Positions 32,836-44,516 of a DNA stretch of 48,106 bases are shown here, piece after piece. The stretch's first letter is position 1. Each line of letters opens with the position of its first letter. A program made the position numbers and the translations under genes. This DNA is from a virus. The notes under the pieces are model-generated. The model had not been told where the DNA came from. It ran no database searches and saw nothing but the letters and a program-made list of their open reading frames with translations. The stretch is from positions 1 through 48,106 of the IMG/VR virus record IMGVR_UViG_3300033147_000207; one strand, given 5' to 3'.

Positions 32836-33066
32836 TTACCCATATCCTCGTTCATCTTCAGCGATATTCAGCAGGCGCAGGTACTCGTGGTCAACCTGCC
32901 ATCCCCGCTCGTGCCGTTGTGCGTAGCCATACCAGCACAGTCCCACCATGGACAGCCGCGCTACGGTTTCGCACTTGTCGATCAAGTAACTCAGCCGCTC
33001 CAGCGTGAAGTACTCCTCTTCGTTCGCGGTGAGGTAGTTCAGGATCTGCAGCGCCTCTTCTCTCAC
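32836..33066 (-). CDS. Small hypothetical protein downstream of ParB (76 aa)
   Basis: Helical and acidic (MREEALQILNYLTANEEEYF, LERLSYLIDKCETVARLSMV), with the rest rich in aromatic residues (GLCWYGYAQRHERGWQVDHEY). It starts at GTG 33066, overlapping the ParB stop (GTGA), so it is probably translated with it. A winged-helix-like fold is conceivable; no family recognised. Confidence 0.7.
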   Translation of the reverse strand: MREEALQILNYLTANEEEYFTLERLSYLIDKCETVARLSMVGLCWYGYAQRHERGWQVDHEYLRLLNIAEDERGYG

Positions 33067-34757
33067 TCCGGCTTCGATGCGGTTTTCTTCTTGCGCGGCT
33101 TGCGAGCCAGCTTCTTCTCGGCTTTCGCTGTCGCCTCTTGCGTGACAGCAGCTTTCGGGTCAACGCGCAACACATCGGCGAGCTTCTCGGCGCCCAGCTC
33201 CAGTTTGCTGGATGCGGTGCGCGTCAGTTCGCCTCTCGTGCTGAGTTCCACGAGGAAGCCCCACAGTTCGGCTTCGCTGAGCGTTTTCCGGTCGAGGTAG
33301 TCGTGCATCGGGGAGGCGTAGTCTTTGTGGTCCTGATCCCCGTACTTGTGGATCTTCGGTTCGAAACCACGGCGTTTCGCTACGTTCTTCCCTGTCTCGG
33401 CCCAGATGCGTTCGATCAGTTTGTGCCCGATGAAGCGCATCGTAGCGTGGCGCGTTGGCGCGGTCGTGACAGCGCCCTCGGCTTGGCTGTCGAGCACCTT
33501 GCCGATGGCATCGTCGATGCGCAGGTTGAGCTTGGCTTCGTCGCGTTGCGTTGCGGCGGGGCTCTTGCCGGTCTGGGTCGCTCCGGTGACTTTCTTCAGC
33601 CAAGGGTCTTTCCGAGCGCGGCAGAGCTTCATTGCGTCAGCAGCGGCAACCACGATCATCGGTTTGTTCGCTCGCGGGTCGCGGAAGATGTGGCGGGTGA
33701 GTTTCTTGGCGTCCTTGCCGAGAACGGTAGACCATTTGTGTTCCTTCGGGTGGTCTTTGCACGGTTGCGTGAGGCGGATCCACTTCGGTTTCAGCATCCC
33801 GTACGACATGAACTGTTTCTCGGTCTGATCGACGCCACCATCGAACACGGCGTAACCATCTTTCCCGGCGTAGGCTTCGACAGAGGCTGCCCATTCTGCG
33901 TCTTGCTTCACGCGGTAGCACTTCTTGTCGGTGCACAAGTTGTCGCCATCGCCCTTCGGGCCTTTCCCAAGCACGAACAGCATCGGCGCGTTCCCCGATC
34001 GCTTCGAGCAGTCGGTGCACGACCCAACGTCGGGCAGCAGCTCGGCGTTCTCGGGGTTGAACCCGGGATCGGCAAGGTTCAGGATGTGGCTCTCGAGCGC
34101 GTACTTCACCCGATCCTTCTGTTCGTCAATGCTGTCGCGTGGGTCGAATCCGTCGTCGAGGTGCTCGGCTATGGCAGCGTCGCGGGCTTTCGGGTCGCGG
34201 ATCTTCCCGAACATCAGCGCGGCGCTCACCGGGAAGTCGCCGGCGGCTACGAGCTTGCGTAGCTTCGCCGGGAACCGGGTCAACTCGGCTCGCTGGTAGA
34301 TGAACGACACCTTACGACCGAGCCGGTCGGCTACGGCCTTCAGCTTGGCGTCGTCGTCGGCGTCGATCAACTTGGCGAACGCTTCGGCTTCTTCCATGGA
34401 GTTGAGGTCAACACGTTGCAGGTTCTCGACCATTTGCAGCGTTTTGATTTCGTCCTTACTCGCACCAGGCGGCACGATCAGGACCGGGATCAGTCGCTTC
34501 GGATCGTTGAGCTGGCTCGCGGCGGCGTGTCGCCGGTTGCCGGCGATCACTACGACCGGACCCAGGTGGCCTTTGTCGTCGTAGTCGCCCATGACCAGAA
34601 GCGGTTGCAAGATGCCGTGCGTTTGGATGCTGTCGGCCAGCTCCTTCAGTTCGGCCTTGTCGTACTTCTTTCGTACGTTTTCGGGCGCTGCGACAATTGT
34701 GTCCAGCGTCACCCACGCGATCCCTTTCGGGTTCGCGGCTGAGACTTTCTCTCCCAC
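33063..34757 (-). CDS. parB: ParB/KorB-type partition or regulatory protein with zinc cluster (564 aa)
   Basis: The N-terminal ParB domain has VVVIAGNRRHAAASQL (68-83) and the box MVENLQRVDLNSMEEAEAF (109-127). A central helix-turn-helix region (about 137-183, LKAVADRLGRKVSFIYQRAE) matches KorB/Spo0J DNA-binding domains. Then CTDC and CTDKKC (C247, C250, C275, C280) form a probable zinc site. The C-terminal 250 residues are unassigned. AAGGAG precedes GTG 34757. No ParA-like ATPase exists in the window. Known ParBs bind parS and CTP; this one may bind the parS-like site at 29332-29351 or act as a silencer, replication or late regulator. Confidence 0.85.
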   Translation of the reverse strand: MGEKVSAANPKGIAWVTLDTIVAAPENVRKKYDKAELKELADSIQTHGILQPLLVMGDYDDKGHLGPVVVIAGNRRHAAASQLNDPKRLIPVLIVPPGASKDEIKTLQMVENLQRVDLNSMEEAEAFAKLIDADDDAKLKAVADRLGRKVSFIYQRAELTRFPAKLRKLVAAGDFPVSAALMFGKIRDPKARDAAIAEHLDDGFDPRDSIDEQKDRVKYALESHILNLADPGFNPENAELLPDVGSCTDCSKRSGNAPMLFVLGKGPKGDGDNLCTDKKCYRVKQDAEWAASVEAYAGKDGYAVFDGGVDQTEKQFMSYGMLKPKWIRLTQPCKDHPKEHKWSTVLGKDAKKLTRHIFRDPRANKPMIVVAAADAMKLCRARKDPWLKKVTGATQTGKSPAATQRDEAKLNLRIDDAIGKVLDSQAEGAVTTAPTRHATMRFIGHKLIERIWAETGKNVAKRRGFEPKIHKYGDQDHKDYASPMHDYLDRKTLSEAELWGFLVELSTRGELTRTASSKLELGAEKLADVLRVDPKAAVTQEATAKAEKKLARKPRKKKTASKPE

Positions 34758-41525: not shown

Positions 41526-42428
41526 CTAGAAAGCCTCGGGGTCGATCTTGCGAACGGGGGCCGGCCCAACCATGCCGCCCATCGAGGTTTGGATCTCAGC
41601 GAACCCTTCGCGCACTTCGTCGCGCAACCCGTCGAAGGTTTCGTCCTTCAGCACGGACGGGTCGACGCCACGCAGCAACTGGCTGGCTTTGTCGAGCTGC
41701 TCGCGCAGTTGGGCATCGTCGGCGATGTCCCGCATACGGAACGTGTCGATGAACTCGACTATGTTGTCGATGTTCGACCCATAGAACCGTTTCCGTTTGC
41801 CATCATCGTCAGGCGTCAGCTTCTCCACGAGGTGATTCACCAGCTTGGCGAACCCGCCGCGCATCATCGCCATGCCTTGCTCGCGGGCCTCTTCGATGAG
41901 GTTCCCGACGCGCTCTTTTTCTCGCCGGAACAGTTGCGGCGCTGTCTCGAGGATTTCCTCGGGCGCAGCGAGGGAGAAGAACCGCCAGCTCAGCGAGAAC
42001 TCGGATTCGAGTTGCTCCGCCGACGGATAGTCTTCTTCGTTGAACTGCGGTCCCAGCTTGACGCGATCGGCTTCCCGGCGGTCGATGTACACAGCGCGCA
42101 GCGCAGCGACCATCTTGTAACGCTCGATGTCGGCGTTATTCAGGTAAGCGTCGATCTCTTCCGCAGCGGTCGGGTGGATGTGGTAGATCCCGGCCTTGAA
42201 CAGCGAAGGCACGGAGCGAGCGCGAATCCAACCCATCAGCTTGGAGTCGAACTTCCTGATCGCTTTGGTTTCTTCGCAGGCCAGCAGACGTTTGCCGAGG
42301 CGCAGCAGCTCTTTATCGGCGCCGGTGGTGATCTCGTTCAGATCGCCACGGCGCGAGCTACCGAGCCTCGACAGGCCAACGTGAAGCATCAGCATGCCCA
42401 CGCTGTCCTGTTGAGGTTCGATATTCAC
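41526..42428 (-). CDS. DUF3150-like protein, probable partner of the AAA+ ATPase (300 aa)
   Basis: Mostly helical (NEITTGADKELLRLGKRLLA, HIHPTAAEEIDAYLNNADIE, EEILETAPQLFRREKERVGN, NHLVEKLTPDDDGKRKRFYG). The arrangement resembles DUF3150 proteins, which in phages and plasmids accompany AAA+ ATPases of the MoxR/CobS class. Starts at GTG 42428, which overlaps the DUF2997-like stop (GTGA), AGGAG nine bases upstream. It is the last gene of the AAA+ module. Function unknown; the family match is moderately certain. Confidence 0.65.
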   Translation of the reverse strand: MNIEPQQDSVGMLMLHVGLSRLGSSRRGDLNEITTGADKELLRLGKRLLACEETKAIRKFDSKLMGWIRARSVPSLFKAGIYHIHPTAAEEIDAYLNNADIERYKMVAALRAVYIDRREADRVKLGPQFNEEDYPSAEQLESEFSLSWRFFSLAAPEEILETAPQLFRREKERVGNLIEEAREQGMAMMRGGFAKLVNHLVEKLTPDDDGKRKRFYGSNIDNIVEFIDTFRMRDIADDAQLREQLDKASQLLRGVDPSVLKDETFDGLRDEVREGFAEIQTSMGGMVGPAPVRKIDPEAF

Positions 42429-42631
42429 GACTGGGTTCTCCTGTGGGTGTGGCGCGCAACGCTGAATCGCTGCGGGCGTTTCTCAACTCGTAATTCCCCA
42501 CCAAGCAGCGCAGCGAATTCTTTCACCAGGCGCTCGGCGGTCGTGTGGTTCGCTCCGGAGATGCCGTCAATCTCCAGCTTCGCTGTCCCGTCTTCCAGGA
42601 TGGTCAGCGTCATCTTGTCGAACTGTTGCAT
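42425..42631 (-). CDS. DUF2997-like small protein (68 aa)
   Basis: MQQFDKMTLTILEDGTAKLE, IDGISGANHTTAERLVKEFA, ALLGGELRVEKRPQRF follows the pattern of DUF2997 (short strands with 'DG', 'GI/VSG', then 'L...LG'). That family is genetically linked with Ycf35/DUF1257 and Ycf46-like AAA+ ATPases. AGGAGG is 5 bases before ATG 42631, and the gene overlaps both neighbours. The classical cysteine after the glycine is replaced (GANHTT), so the match is to the pattern and context. Confidence 0.68.
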   Translation of the reverse strand: MQQFDKMTLTILEDGTAKLEIDGISGANHTTAERLVKEFAALLGGELRVEKRPQRFSVARHTHRRTQS

Positions 42632-42957
42632 CAGTACCTCCTGCGCGTTGCGACAAGGACGTTGCTGGCTTTCTCGGTGACGGTGAACCCGGCCTTCGCG
42701 GTGACGCGCTTGTACGCAGCAGCGGTGTAGGCGCGTTTCACGCCGTTGGTAATATCGGAACTGTCTAGCGAAGTCGTGCCGGTGTGCGTGAGCTTCCCGT
42801 TGGCGTACCCCAACGTCCCGCGGTTCGTGCTGCCGGCGTGCAGCGTCTTGGTGCCTTGCGTGACAACCCAACCATCGGCCTTCAGCGCGGTCGCCAGCAA
42901 GTCGAGGTCAGCTTTCATCAGCGAGACGGTTTGCGTTCGGCGTTCCCAACACGGCAT
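42631..42957 (-). CDS. Ycf35/DUF1257-like protein (108 aa)
   Basis: QTVSLMKADLDLLATALKAD, GWVVTQGTKTLHAGSTNRGT, LGYANGKLTHTG, then NGVKRAYTAAAYKRVTAKAG and FTVTEKASNVLVATRRRY at the end. This reproduces the Ycf35/DUF1257 layout: L..AL...G..V at the start, 'AY....A...GF.V' and a terminal RR(W/Y). ATG 42957 shares bases with the AAA+ stop (TGATG); a GTG three bases earlier is the alternative. The family is of unknown biochemical function and is known from plastids, cyanobacteria and phages. Confidence 0.72.
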   Translation of the reverse strand: MPCWERRTQTVSLMKADLDLLATALKADGWVVTQGTKTLHAGSTNRGTLGYANGKLTHTGTTSLDSSDITNGVKRAYTAAAYKRVTAKAGFTVTEKASNVLVATRRRY

Positions 42958-44516
42958 CACACCACCAGCTTTCGTTTCGAGGGCTCGTCGGCGCTCATCG
43001 TGGTCTTGTAAGCGTCGTAGTAGCCGCCGGTGGAGGCGTCGAGGAAGTTCCCAGAGGCGAGCCCACGGAGCTCGGCAAGGTCTTCGGCGCCCGATTTGCA
43101 GATCGGCACGATGTAACGTCGGGCTTCATCCACGGGAATGCCCAGGCGCTTCGCGGTGCGGCACACGTTGCGAATCTCAGCACCGGTCCATCCTTCGGAC
43201 CACGCCAGAGCGTCGATGGTATCGCTACGGCTCACGTCGTAGATGCCGCCAAACAGTTCCCAGATCGCGTTGCGCTCGGGGATCGTCGGAAGATCGAAGT
43301 ACCAGATGCCAGCGGTGAAACGGCGTTTCAGTTCGGGCGGCAACGCGCGAAGTTTGTTGCACGTAGCCATCACGAACACGCGGCCGTTCCCGATGCGGTC
43401 GATGGTTTCGAGCGCAAGGCGAATCCGTCGCTCGGACTCACCCACCAGGGAACCTTTCAGAGAGCCCATATCGAGCCGAAGATACGGCGCGGTGTGCAGA
43501 CCGGCTATGGTCTTGCTGACAAGCGTTTTGCCGGTCCCGGGAGGGCCAGCGGAGATCAGCCCGTCCCAACTACGCTCTTCCATGGTTTGCAGCACCTGGC
43601 CGATCTGATCTTGCGTGACACCGGAGGAGTCGCCGGCAGAGTCACCAGCACCAGAACCGGCCAACGCCTTGTCAATCTCGTCGATGTGCAGCACGGCCTG
43701 TGGTCGCTCATCGTTCCCATCGCGGAACAGCCCATCGAAGAACTCCATCAGCGAACCCAGGCCACGGATCGAGTCGCGCTCGGTCTTGCGGAATTCCATC
43801 TGGAGACCGGGAACAGCGTTGATCGCTTCTGTCTTGCGGTCCCACAGCGACTGGAGGTTGATCGCAAGGTGCGGCGCTTCGTCGCCAGCCTTGCGCTCGA
43901 CACGCGACAGCGACAGCACGGTCTGCTGTTCGGCGTTGAACGAGGACAGCCCACGCAACGCGCCCACGATCTGATCGCGGGACTGATCGGTCATCTCGGT
44001 GATCTCGGCGCCGTTGCGCTTCACATCGTCCAGAACCACATCCACGACCAGCGCCAGCTCGGCGTCGTTCGGAAGCGGGTGGCGTAGCTGGATGATGTCC
44101 TGCAGCAACTCGGCGGGCGGGTCCAGGCTCGGACCCATCAGAACCATCGTGGAGCCACGCGCCTTGAACGTGTCGCGCATGTTCCCAAGGGCGGTGGCGA
44201 CTCGCATGTCGTCCACCAGTCGGTGAGCGTTGAACATGAAAACCAACCCGCTCTCCGGGAACTTGGTGTTCAGCAGCTCGAGCGCCAACACGGGGTCGGT
44301 TGCCTCGGCAGGGGTAACGTTTCCCAACAGCGCGGTCAGTTGCTCCTGGGACTTCGCATCGACGGCTCGGAAGCCTTGCACGATGTCCCATCGCAGCACA
44401 CAGCCGCCGTTAATCTCGCGCAGCAACCGGAAAGTCTCCGGCTGGTTGTCCGTTGCGACCGACACCAGCGGGGTGCCGACGCGGCGAACAGCGGTGAATT
44501 CACTCATCAGGTCCAT
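42957..44516 (-). CDS. AAA+ ATPase with permuted Walker order, Ycf46-like (519 aa)
   Basis: N-terminal Ycf46-like region (about 1-240, TPLVSVATDNQPETFRLLRE, IQLRHPLPNDAELALVVDVV). Walker B-like VLHIDEIDKAL (DEID 279-282) with its following helix (GVTQDQIGQVLQTMEERS) then comes BEFORE Walker A GPPGTGKT (324-331). After it LRLDMGSLKGSLVGESERRI, sensor 1 MATCN (N387) and PELKRRF follow directly. In ordinary AAA+ proteins Walker A comes first. The missing slot between RIRLALETIDRIG and GRVFVMATCN is exactly where the displaced piece normally sits. GAGGAG precedes ATG 44516. ATPase, probably a protein remodeler working with the three overlapping partner genes. Confidence 0.9.
   Translation of the reverse strand: MDLMSEFTAVRRVGTPLVSVATDNQPETFRLLREINGGCVLRWDIVQGFRAVDAKSQEQLTALLGNVTPAEATDPVLALELLNTKFPESGLVFMFNAHRLVDDMRVATALGNMRDTFKARGSTMVLMGPSLDPPAELLQDIIQLRHPLPNDAELALVVDVVLDDVKRNGAEITEMTDQSRDQIVGALRGLSSFNAEQQTVLSLSRVERKAGDEAPHLAINLQSLWDRKTEAINAVPGLQMEFRKTERDSIRGLGSLMEFFDGLFRDGNDERPQAVLHIDEIDKALAGSGAGDSAGDSSGVTQDQIGQVLQTMEERSWDGLISAGPPGTGKTLVSKTIAGLHTAPYLRLDMGSLKGSLVGESERRIRLALETIDRIGNGRVFVMATCNKLRALPPELKRRFTAGIWYFDLPTIPERNAIWELFGGIYDVSRSDTIDALAWSEGWTGAEIRNVCRTAKRLGIPVDEARRYIVPICKSGAEDLAELRGLASGNFLDASTGGYYDAYKTTMSADEPSKRKLVV

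Follow-up and report, generated by a model that had tools for sequence, protein, structure and literature searches.

A phage family of Ycf46/Vps4-type AAA+ ATPases in which the Walker B block precedes Walker A

The window analyzed here, the whole 48,106-nucleotide stretch at positions 1 to 48,106 of IMG/VR virus record IMGVR_UViG_3300033147_000207, encodes a Ycf46/Vps4-type AAA+ ATPase in whose core the Walker B block lies ahead of the P-loop. The permutation itself is near certain. We assign a probability of roughly 0.8 to the best explanation, namely that the protein belongs to the Ycf46/Vps4/p97 kind of AAA+ ATPase, is active, and owes its core order to a single rearrangement in a phage lineage. 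In our reading, the core order is a0-b3-a3-b1-a1-b2-a2-b4-b5 (a, helix; b, strand), and the protein serves tailed phages as an active AAA+ remodelling machine of two domains. Few enzymes have been studied as intensively as AAA+ motors, whose motif definitions and profiles take it for granted that Walker A is followed by Walker B and then by sensor 1. A large natural clade that departs from this arrangement offers a natural test of which connections of the chain are important for ATP hydrolysis and inter-subunit signalling.

The gene is an uninterrupted open reading frame of 519 aa on the minus strand (42957 to 44516). The Walker B motif hhhhDE is present as VLHIDE (residues 275 to 280), the start of VLHIDEIDK (275 to 283), and lies ahead of the Walker A motif GxxxxGK[ST], present as GPPGTGKT (324 to 331; 43524 to 43547, minus strand). 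The sensor-1 Asn, N387 of ATCN (43356 to 43358, minus strand), and the arginine-finger pair R398 R399 (43320 to 43325, minus strand) of RRF (398 to 400) follow, giving the order Walker B, Walker A, sensor 1 instead of the usual Walker A, Walker B, sensor 1. The transposed block, residues 273 to 315 (43572 to 43700, minus strand), comprises b3 with the Walker B residues DEID (279 to 282) and helix a3 (300 to 314); its edges were taken from the match to a canonical profile and its secondary structure from an AlphaFold model. By the same profile match, the emptied canonical site of the block lies between residues 376 and 377 (43388 to 43389, minus strand). Residues 1 to 235 (43812 to 44516, minus strand) form a P-loop-less, AAA+-like N-terminal domain that was aligned to p97/Cdc48 D1. 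The Pfam AAA_lid_3 match of the window protein was below the cut-off.

The block exchange was resolved with a reference profile built from 156 related proteins, all of canonical order with Walker A first. The native protein matched this profile in pieces, with residues 2 to 260 on model positions 52 to 294, 274 to 316 on 374 to 414 (Walker B), 319 to 376 on 315 to 372 (Walker A), and 379 to 496 on 416 to 545; the best piece scored 88 bits and the whole protein 242. When the block 273 to 315 was shifted in silico to after residue 376, for scoring only, a single unbroken match to model positions 52 to 545 was obtained at 294.5 bits. Random block moves (3000) gave a median of 70 and a maximum of 264; the moves that reached 264 amounted to this exchange performed from the opposite side. 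The repair raised the total score by about 30 to 40 bits and made the match continuous in 13 of the 13 members tested. The sole unaccounted profile stretch was one of about 20 positions in the a0-to-b1 interval. Since one continuous match resulted after repair, the change is an exchange of the adjacent blocks [b1-a1-b2-a2] and [b3-a3]. Thus, the rearrangement is an internal swap of two adjoining blocks and not an end-to-end circular permutation.

Homology to the Ycf46 family was found for all blocks, including the N-terminal domain. The match to the Ycf46 profile phrog_8638 (4.7e-38) was not collinear and fell into four pieces out of sequence, and that to Pfam AAA (9.7e-16) fell into two stretches; rearranged blocks would be expected to split both matches in this way. 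Profile annotation can miss or split rearranged proteins such as these. The pieces out of sequence, together with the homologues described below, confirmed the initial annotation that the Walker B block stands ahead of the P-loop, and the slot that it had described as empty between the P-loop part and sensor 1 was indeed vacated after residue 376. Its residue numbering (DEID 279 to 282, P-loop 324 to 331, N387, RRF 398 to 400) agreed with ours, and the catalytic elements that it had listed (Walker A, DEID, sensor-1 N387, and the RRF arginines) are all present. The connectivity b3-a3-b1-a1-b2-a2-b4 that it had proposed holds in the canonical-profile match and in the AlphaFold models of the window protein and of a second permuted protein, L007. 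A second Walker B, sought after the P-loop, was absent between the P-loop and sensor 1 of the window protein.

At first the order was known from a single metagenomic contig, as would be expected of an assembly chimera, a frameshift or a chance motif. This explanation was refuted by same-order proteins in other records and is now scarcely credible. The collection of same-order homologues, suggested at the outset, yielded at least 58 proteins beyond that of the window, including one from an isolate phage genome. In total, at least 59 proteins with the Walker B-first order were found, at least 50 of them distinct below 90% identity, on 57 viral contigs (window included), in the isolate Tunturiibacter phage Tunturi_3, and on at least one Myxococcales MAG contig. 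The Tunturi_3 protein (PP885686) aligned end to end with that of the window at 31% identity. A single-sequence scan of viral contigs found no close relative; an alignment-based scan of viral contigs found ten more permuted proteins, and a relaxed two-motif DNA pattern found 46 more, every one homologous by profile. The scan of genome contigs gave at least one permuted protein among the matches listed, that on the Myxococcales MAG contig, and a strict pattern applied to 379 Myxococcota genomes found a permuted copy only in this MAG. In the first set, the spacing from Walker B to Walker A ranged from +41 to +47 residues, compared with -56/-57 in canonical proteins. An intermediate carrying two Walker B blocks was not seen among the proteins collected. 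The Walker B-first order defines a whole clade, not a lone protein.

Across 50 distinct members, D279, E280, G324, G327, K330 and R399 were 100% conserved and N387 was 98% conserved. For the 46 later proteins, the search pattern itself included the Walker B, A286-G287 and the P-loop, whose conservation in that set is therefore partly a product of selection; R399, N387, G359 and others lay outside the pattern. These residues bear on the view that the protein is a degenerate AAA+ scaffold that hydrolyses no ATP and could tolerate the rearrangement because catalysis had been lost. In keeping with this view, the N-terminal domain no longer has a P-loop of its own and the P-loops of some members are altered, but the Lys of Walker A, both acidic residues of Walker B (Asp and Glu) and the arginine finger are invariant and the sensor-1 Asn is nearly so, which makes a dead scaffold improbable. 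ATPase activity of the permuted protein is likely, judging from these residues. The final Gly of the Walker A motif was substituted in otherwise intact members, as in GVPGVSKS of Tunturi_3 (L001, 6001 to 7596) and GPPGAAKS of L011 and L014. Members with such loosened P-loops need not all be fast ATPases.

Structure prediction with AlphaFold, using 12 permuted sequences as input and no templates, gave a model of the window protein with a pLDDT of 81.3 and a pTM of 0.74; for the AAA+ domain of L007, the values were 86.3 and 0.83. In the window model, the strand 274 to 278 (pLDDT 91 to 92) leads into the helix 300 to 314 and directly on to b1 at 318 to 323, with a low-confidence loop at 287 to 297. 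Both models place the Walker B on a strand of the sheet, immediately ahead of a3-b1. Residues 235 to 490 of the window model were superposed on Vps4 (4d82) with a Z of 16.2 (2.6 A, 206 residues), and the L007 domain model on p97 D2 with a Z of 16.3 (2.8 to 2.9 A, 202 residues); the aligner is order-dependent, and the roughly 202 to 206 superposed residues come close to the full number lying outside the moved block. If b2 and b4 lie where they do canonically, no strand other than b3 remains for the gap separating them, which b3 would therefore fill. Model residues 1 to 491 aligned to p97/Cdc48 D1+D2 over 415 residues (Z 17.6), so the N-terminal half would be an AAA+-like domain without a P-loop. 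The AAA+ fold with its lid is a prediction, and AlphaFold may lean on memorised AAA+ folds.

The models also bear on whether the b3-a3 unit acts in trans, with ring subunits lending the block to a neighbour and the altered order serving as an inter-subunit hinge. The block now stands behind helix a0 and the N-terminal domain, and the low-confidence loop 287 to 297 could permit movement. However, the loop from a3 to b1 has only about 3 residues (helix 300 to 314, strand 318 to 323), and both monomer models put the strand in its own sheet. A domain swap of this kind is unlikely.

Trees were built from the N-terminal domain and everything after b4, the segments that the exchange had left in place. 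The permuted proteins formed one clade with a support of 100, both in the mixture-model tree (13 of 13) and under a faster model with more rows (42 of 42). As this single clade was recovered without the rearranged part, one event suffices, and the permutation likely arose by one ancient event. The putative sister group differed between the trees, being the canonical L109, L017 and L018 by the mixture model on the collinear segments, and L003 and L044 by the faster model with more rows, the latter with a long-branch warning. L109, a Bacteroidota MAG locus, encodes a canonical ATPase, and among its neighbours are proteins closely homologous to the partners. Thus, the block exchange probably took place within an existing operon.

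On the favored explanation of an active, once-rearranged ATPase, the b3-a3 unit with the Walker B would have traded places once with the normally preceding b1-a1-b2-a2. As a b-a unit both begins and finishes on one edge of the sheet, the exchange would need only new short loops; the spatial sheet order 5-1-4-3-2 and the ATP site would stay intact. Proteins of the Vps4/p97 type assemble into rings, which pull on other proteins or remodel them. Since the AAA+-like N-terminal domain without a P-loop and the C-terminal lid appear to be kept, the permuted ATPase probably forms p97/Vps4-like rings. The conserved catalytic residues and the fixed partner suggest that it uses ATP to remodel a phage protein complex, probably acting with the DUF3150-like and DUF2997-like operon proteins and, in other members, with Ycf35-like ones as well. 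In canonical AAA+ rings, the covalent a3-b4 link is thought to carry inter-subunit signals. We consider it fairly probable that a natural b-a exchange gave rise to a successful, active AAA+ family in which a3-b1 replaces a3-b4, with strand order and link dispensable. If true, neither would be necessary for a working AAA+ motor.

The permuted protein resembles Ycf46-type ATPases (phrog_8638; phage, plasmid, bacterial and plastid) in its two-domain layout, the sequence of every block, all catalytic motifs, and its DUF1257/Ycf35 and DUF2997 neighbours. It differs from them in that Walker A comes first in 156 of 156 canonical reference relatives and in lacking the roughly 20 profile positions of the a0-to-b1 interval. 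With Vps4, spastin and p97/Cdc48 D2 it shares the predicted fold (Z about 16 to 17), the RRF arginines, the AAA lid and a GES motif after the pore-loop region, whereas the core-strand connectivity is different and the identity is just about 20%. The nearest precedent, which is different in kind, is that of the circularly permuted GTPases (YjeQ/RsgA and YlqF/RbgA), in which a P-loop NTPase has likewise been permuted naturally and has kept its active site. In those proteins, the entire G domain is cyclically permuted to G4-G5-G1-G2-G3 (PMC6912228) and Walker A still comes before Walker B, whereas here blocks are exchanged within the domain, the termini are unmoved and Walker B comes first. No description of a permuted AAA+ protein or of a Walker B-before-Walker A order was found in the open-access full-text literature searched, in agreement with the initial annotation, which knew of no described family with this order.

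Other genes of the window encode tape measure, portal, terminase, ParB, exonuclease and ERF proteins. Three genes with overlapping ends, of 109, 68 and 300 aa, come next after the ATPase gene on the minus strand. The 109-aa frame (42631 to 42960) overlaps the ATPase stop and sits where related loci have a DUF1257/Ycf35-like gene; its operon position fits DUF1257/Ycf35, but the profile comparison gave a probability of 2.6%, which is not significant. A recognisable DUF1257/Ycf35 protein is encoded at the permuted locus L096 (5.5e-7). The 68-aa protein (42425 to 42631) is DUF2997-like (profile probability 81%, E 1.2e-5), and the homologous L096 gene matches Pfam DUF2997 at 3e-15.

The 300-aa DUF3150-like protein (41526 to 42428) is the universal neighbour of the permuted ATPase. 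Homologues lie near the ATPase at 13 of the 13 first loci (upstream in L016 and L096) and at 30 of the 46 later loci, these 30 being every later locus whose downstream sequence exceeds 2.6 kb. The partner shows weak profile similarity to Pfam DUF3150 (PF11348), with sub-threshold matches in 5 of 13 records (E 0.001 to, for one record, 5e-7), but stays below the curated cut-off in every record (0 of 13 above it, none exceeding 24.9 bits). The Tunturi_3 partner (L001, 9696 to 10655) is labelled "HNH endonuclease"; Pfam finds no HNH domain in it, and the label is probably a misannotation.

Related neighbours also accompany canonical Ycf46 ATPases, whether from Verrucomicrobia, phages or IncA/C-type plasmids. 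Synechocystis has duf2997, ycf35 and fed7 in a cluster (PMC4284462). Through the permuted clade, tailed phages are connected with this poorly understood Ycf46-Ycf35-DUF2997 module, which plastids, cyanobacteria and IncA/C-type plasmids share. A general recombination context was rejected: with ERF in 3 of 13 records and PDDEXK in 4 of 13, the ERF and exonuclease genes beside the window operon reflect no general rule. Identity with the anti-phage protein IetA was likewise rejected, as its models match only through the common AAA+ domain, far below the cut-off.

Further observations were made at these loci. A family of 80 to 120 aa adjoins the permuted ATPase at 8 of the 13 first loci, its members including L096 8609 to 8845 (no Pfam match), L008 9316 to 9573 and L014 8163 to 8414. 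The conjugative IncA/C-type plasmid NZ_CP042536 (L177, 7296 to 10992) encodes a canonical Ycf46-type ATPase with Ycf35-like, DUF2997 and membrane proteins, together with a homologue (8.5e-7) of an 85-aa family from permuted phage loci. The ParB-like protein of the window (33063 to 34757, 564 aa; Pfam ParB_N, 2.6e-11) is encoded in a tailed phage. Acidobacterial Ycf46-type ATPases occur in tandem (L097, 3195 to 5546; L098, 2505 to 4814), and in the L097 pair the second ATPase has at its N-terminus a stretch resembling a protein kinase domain.
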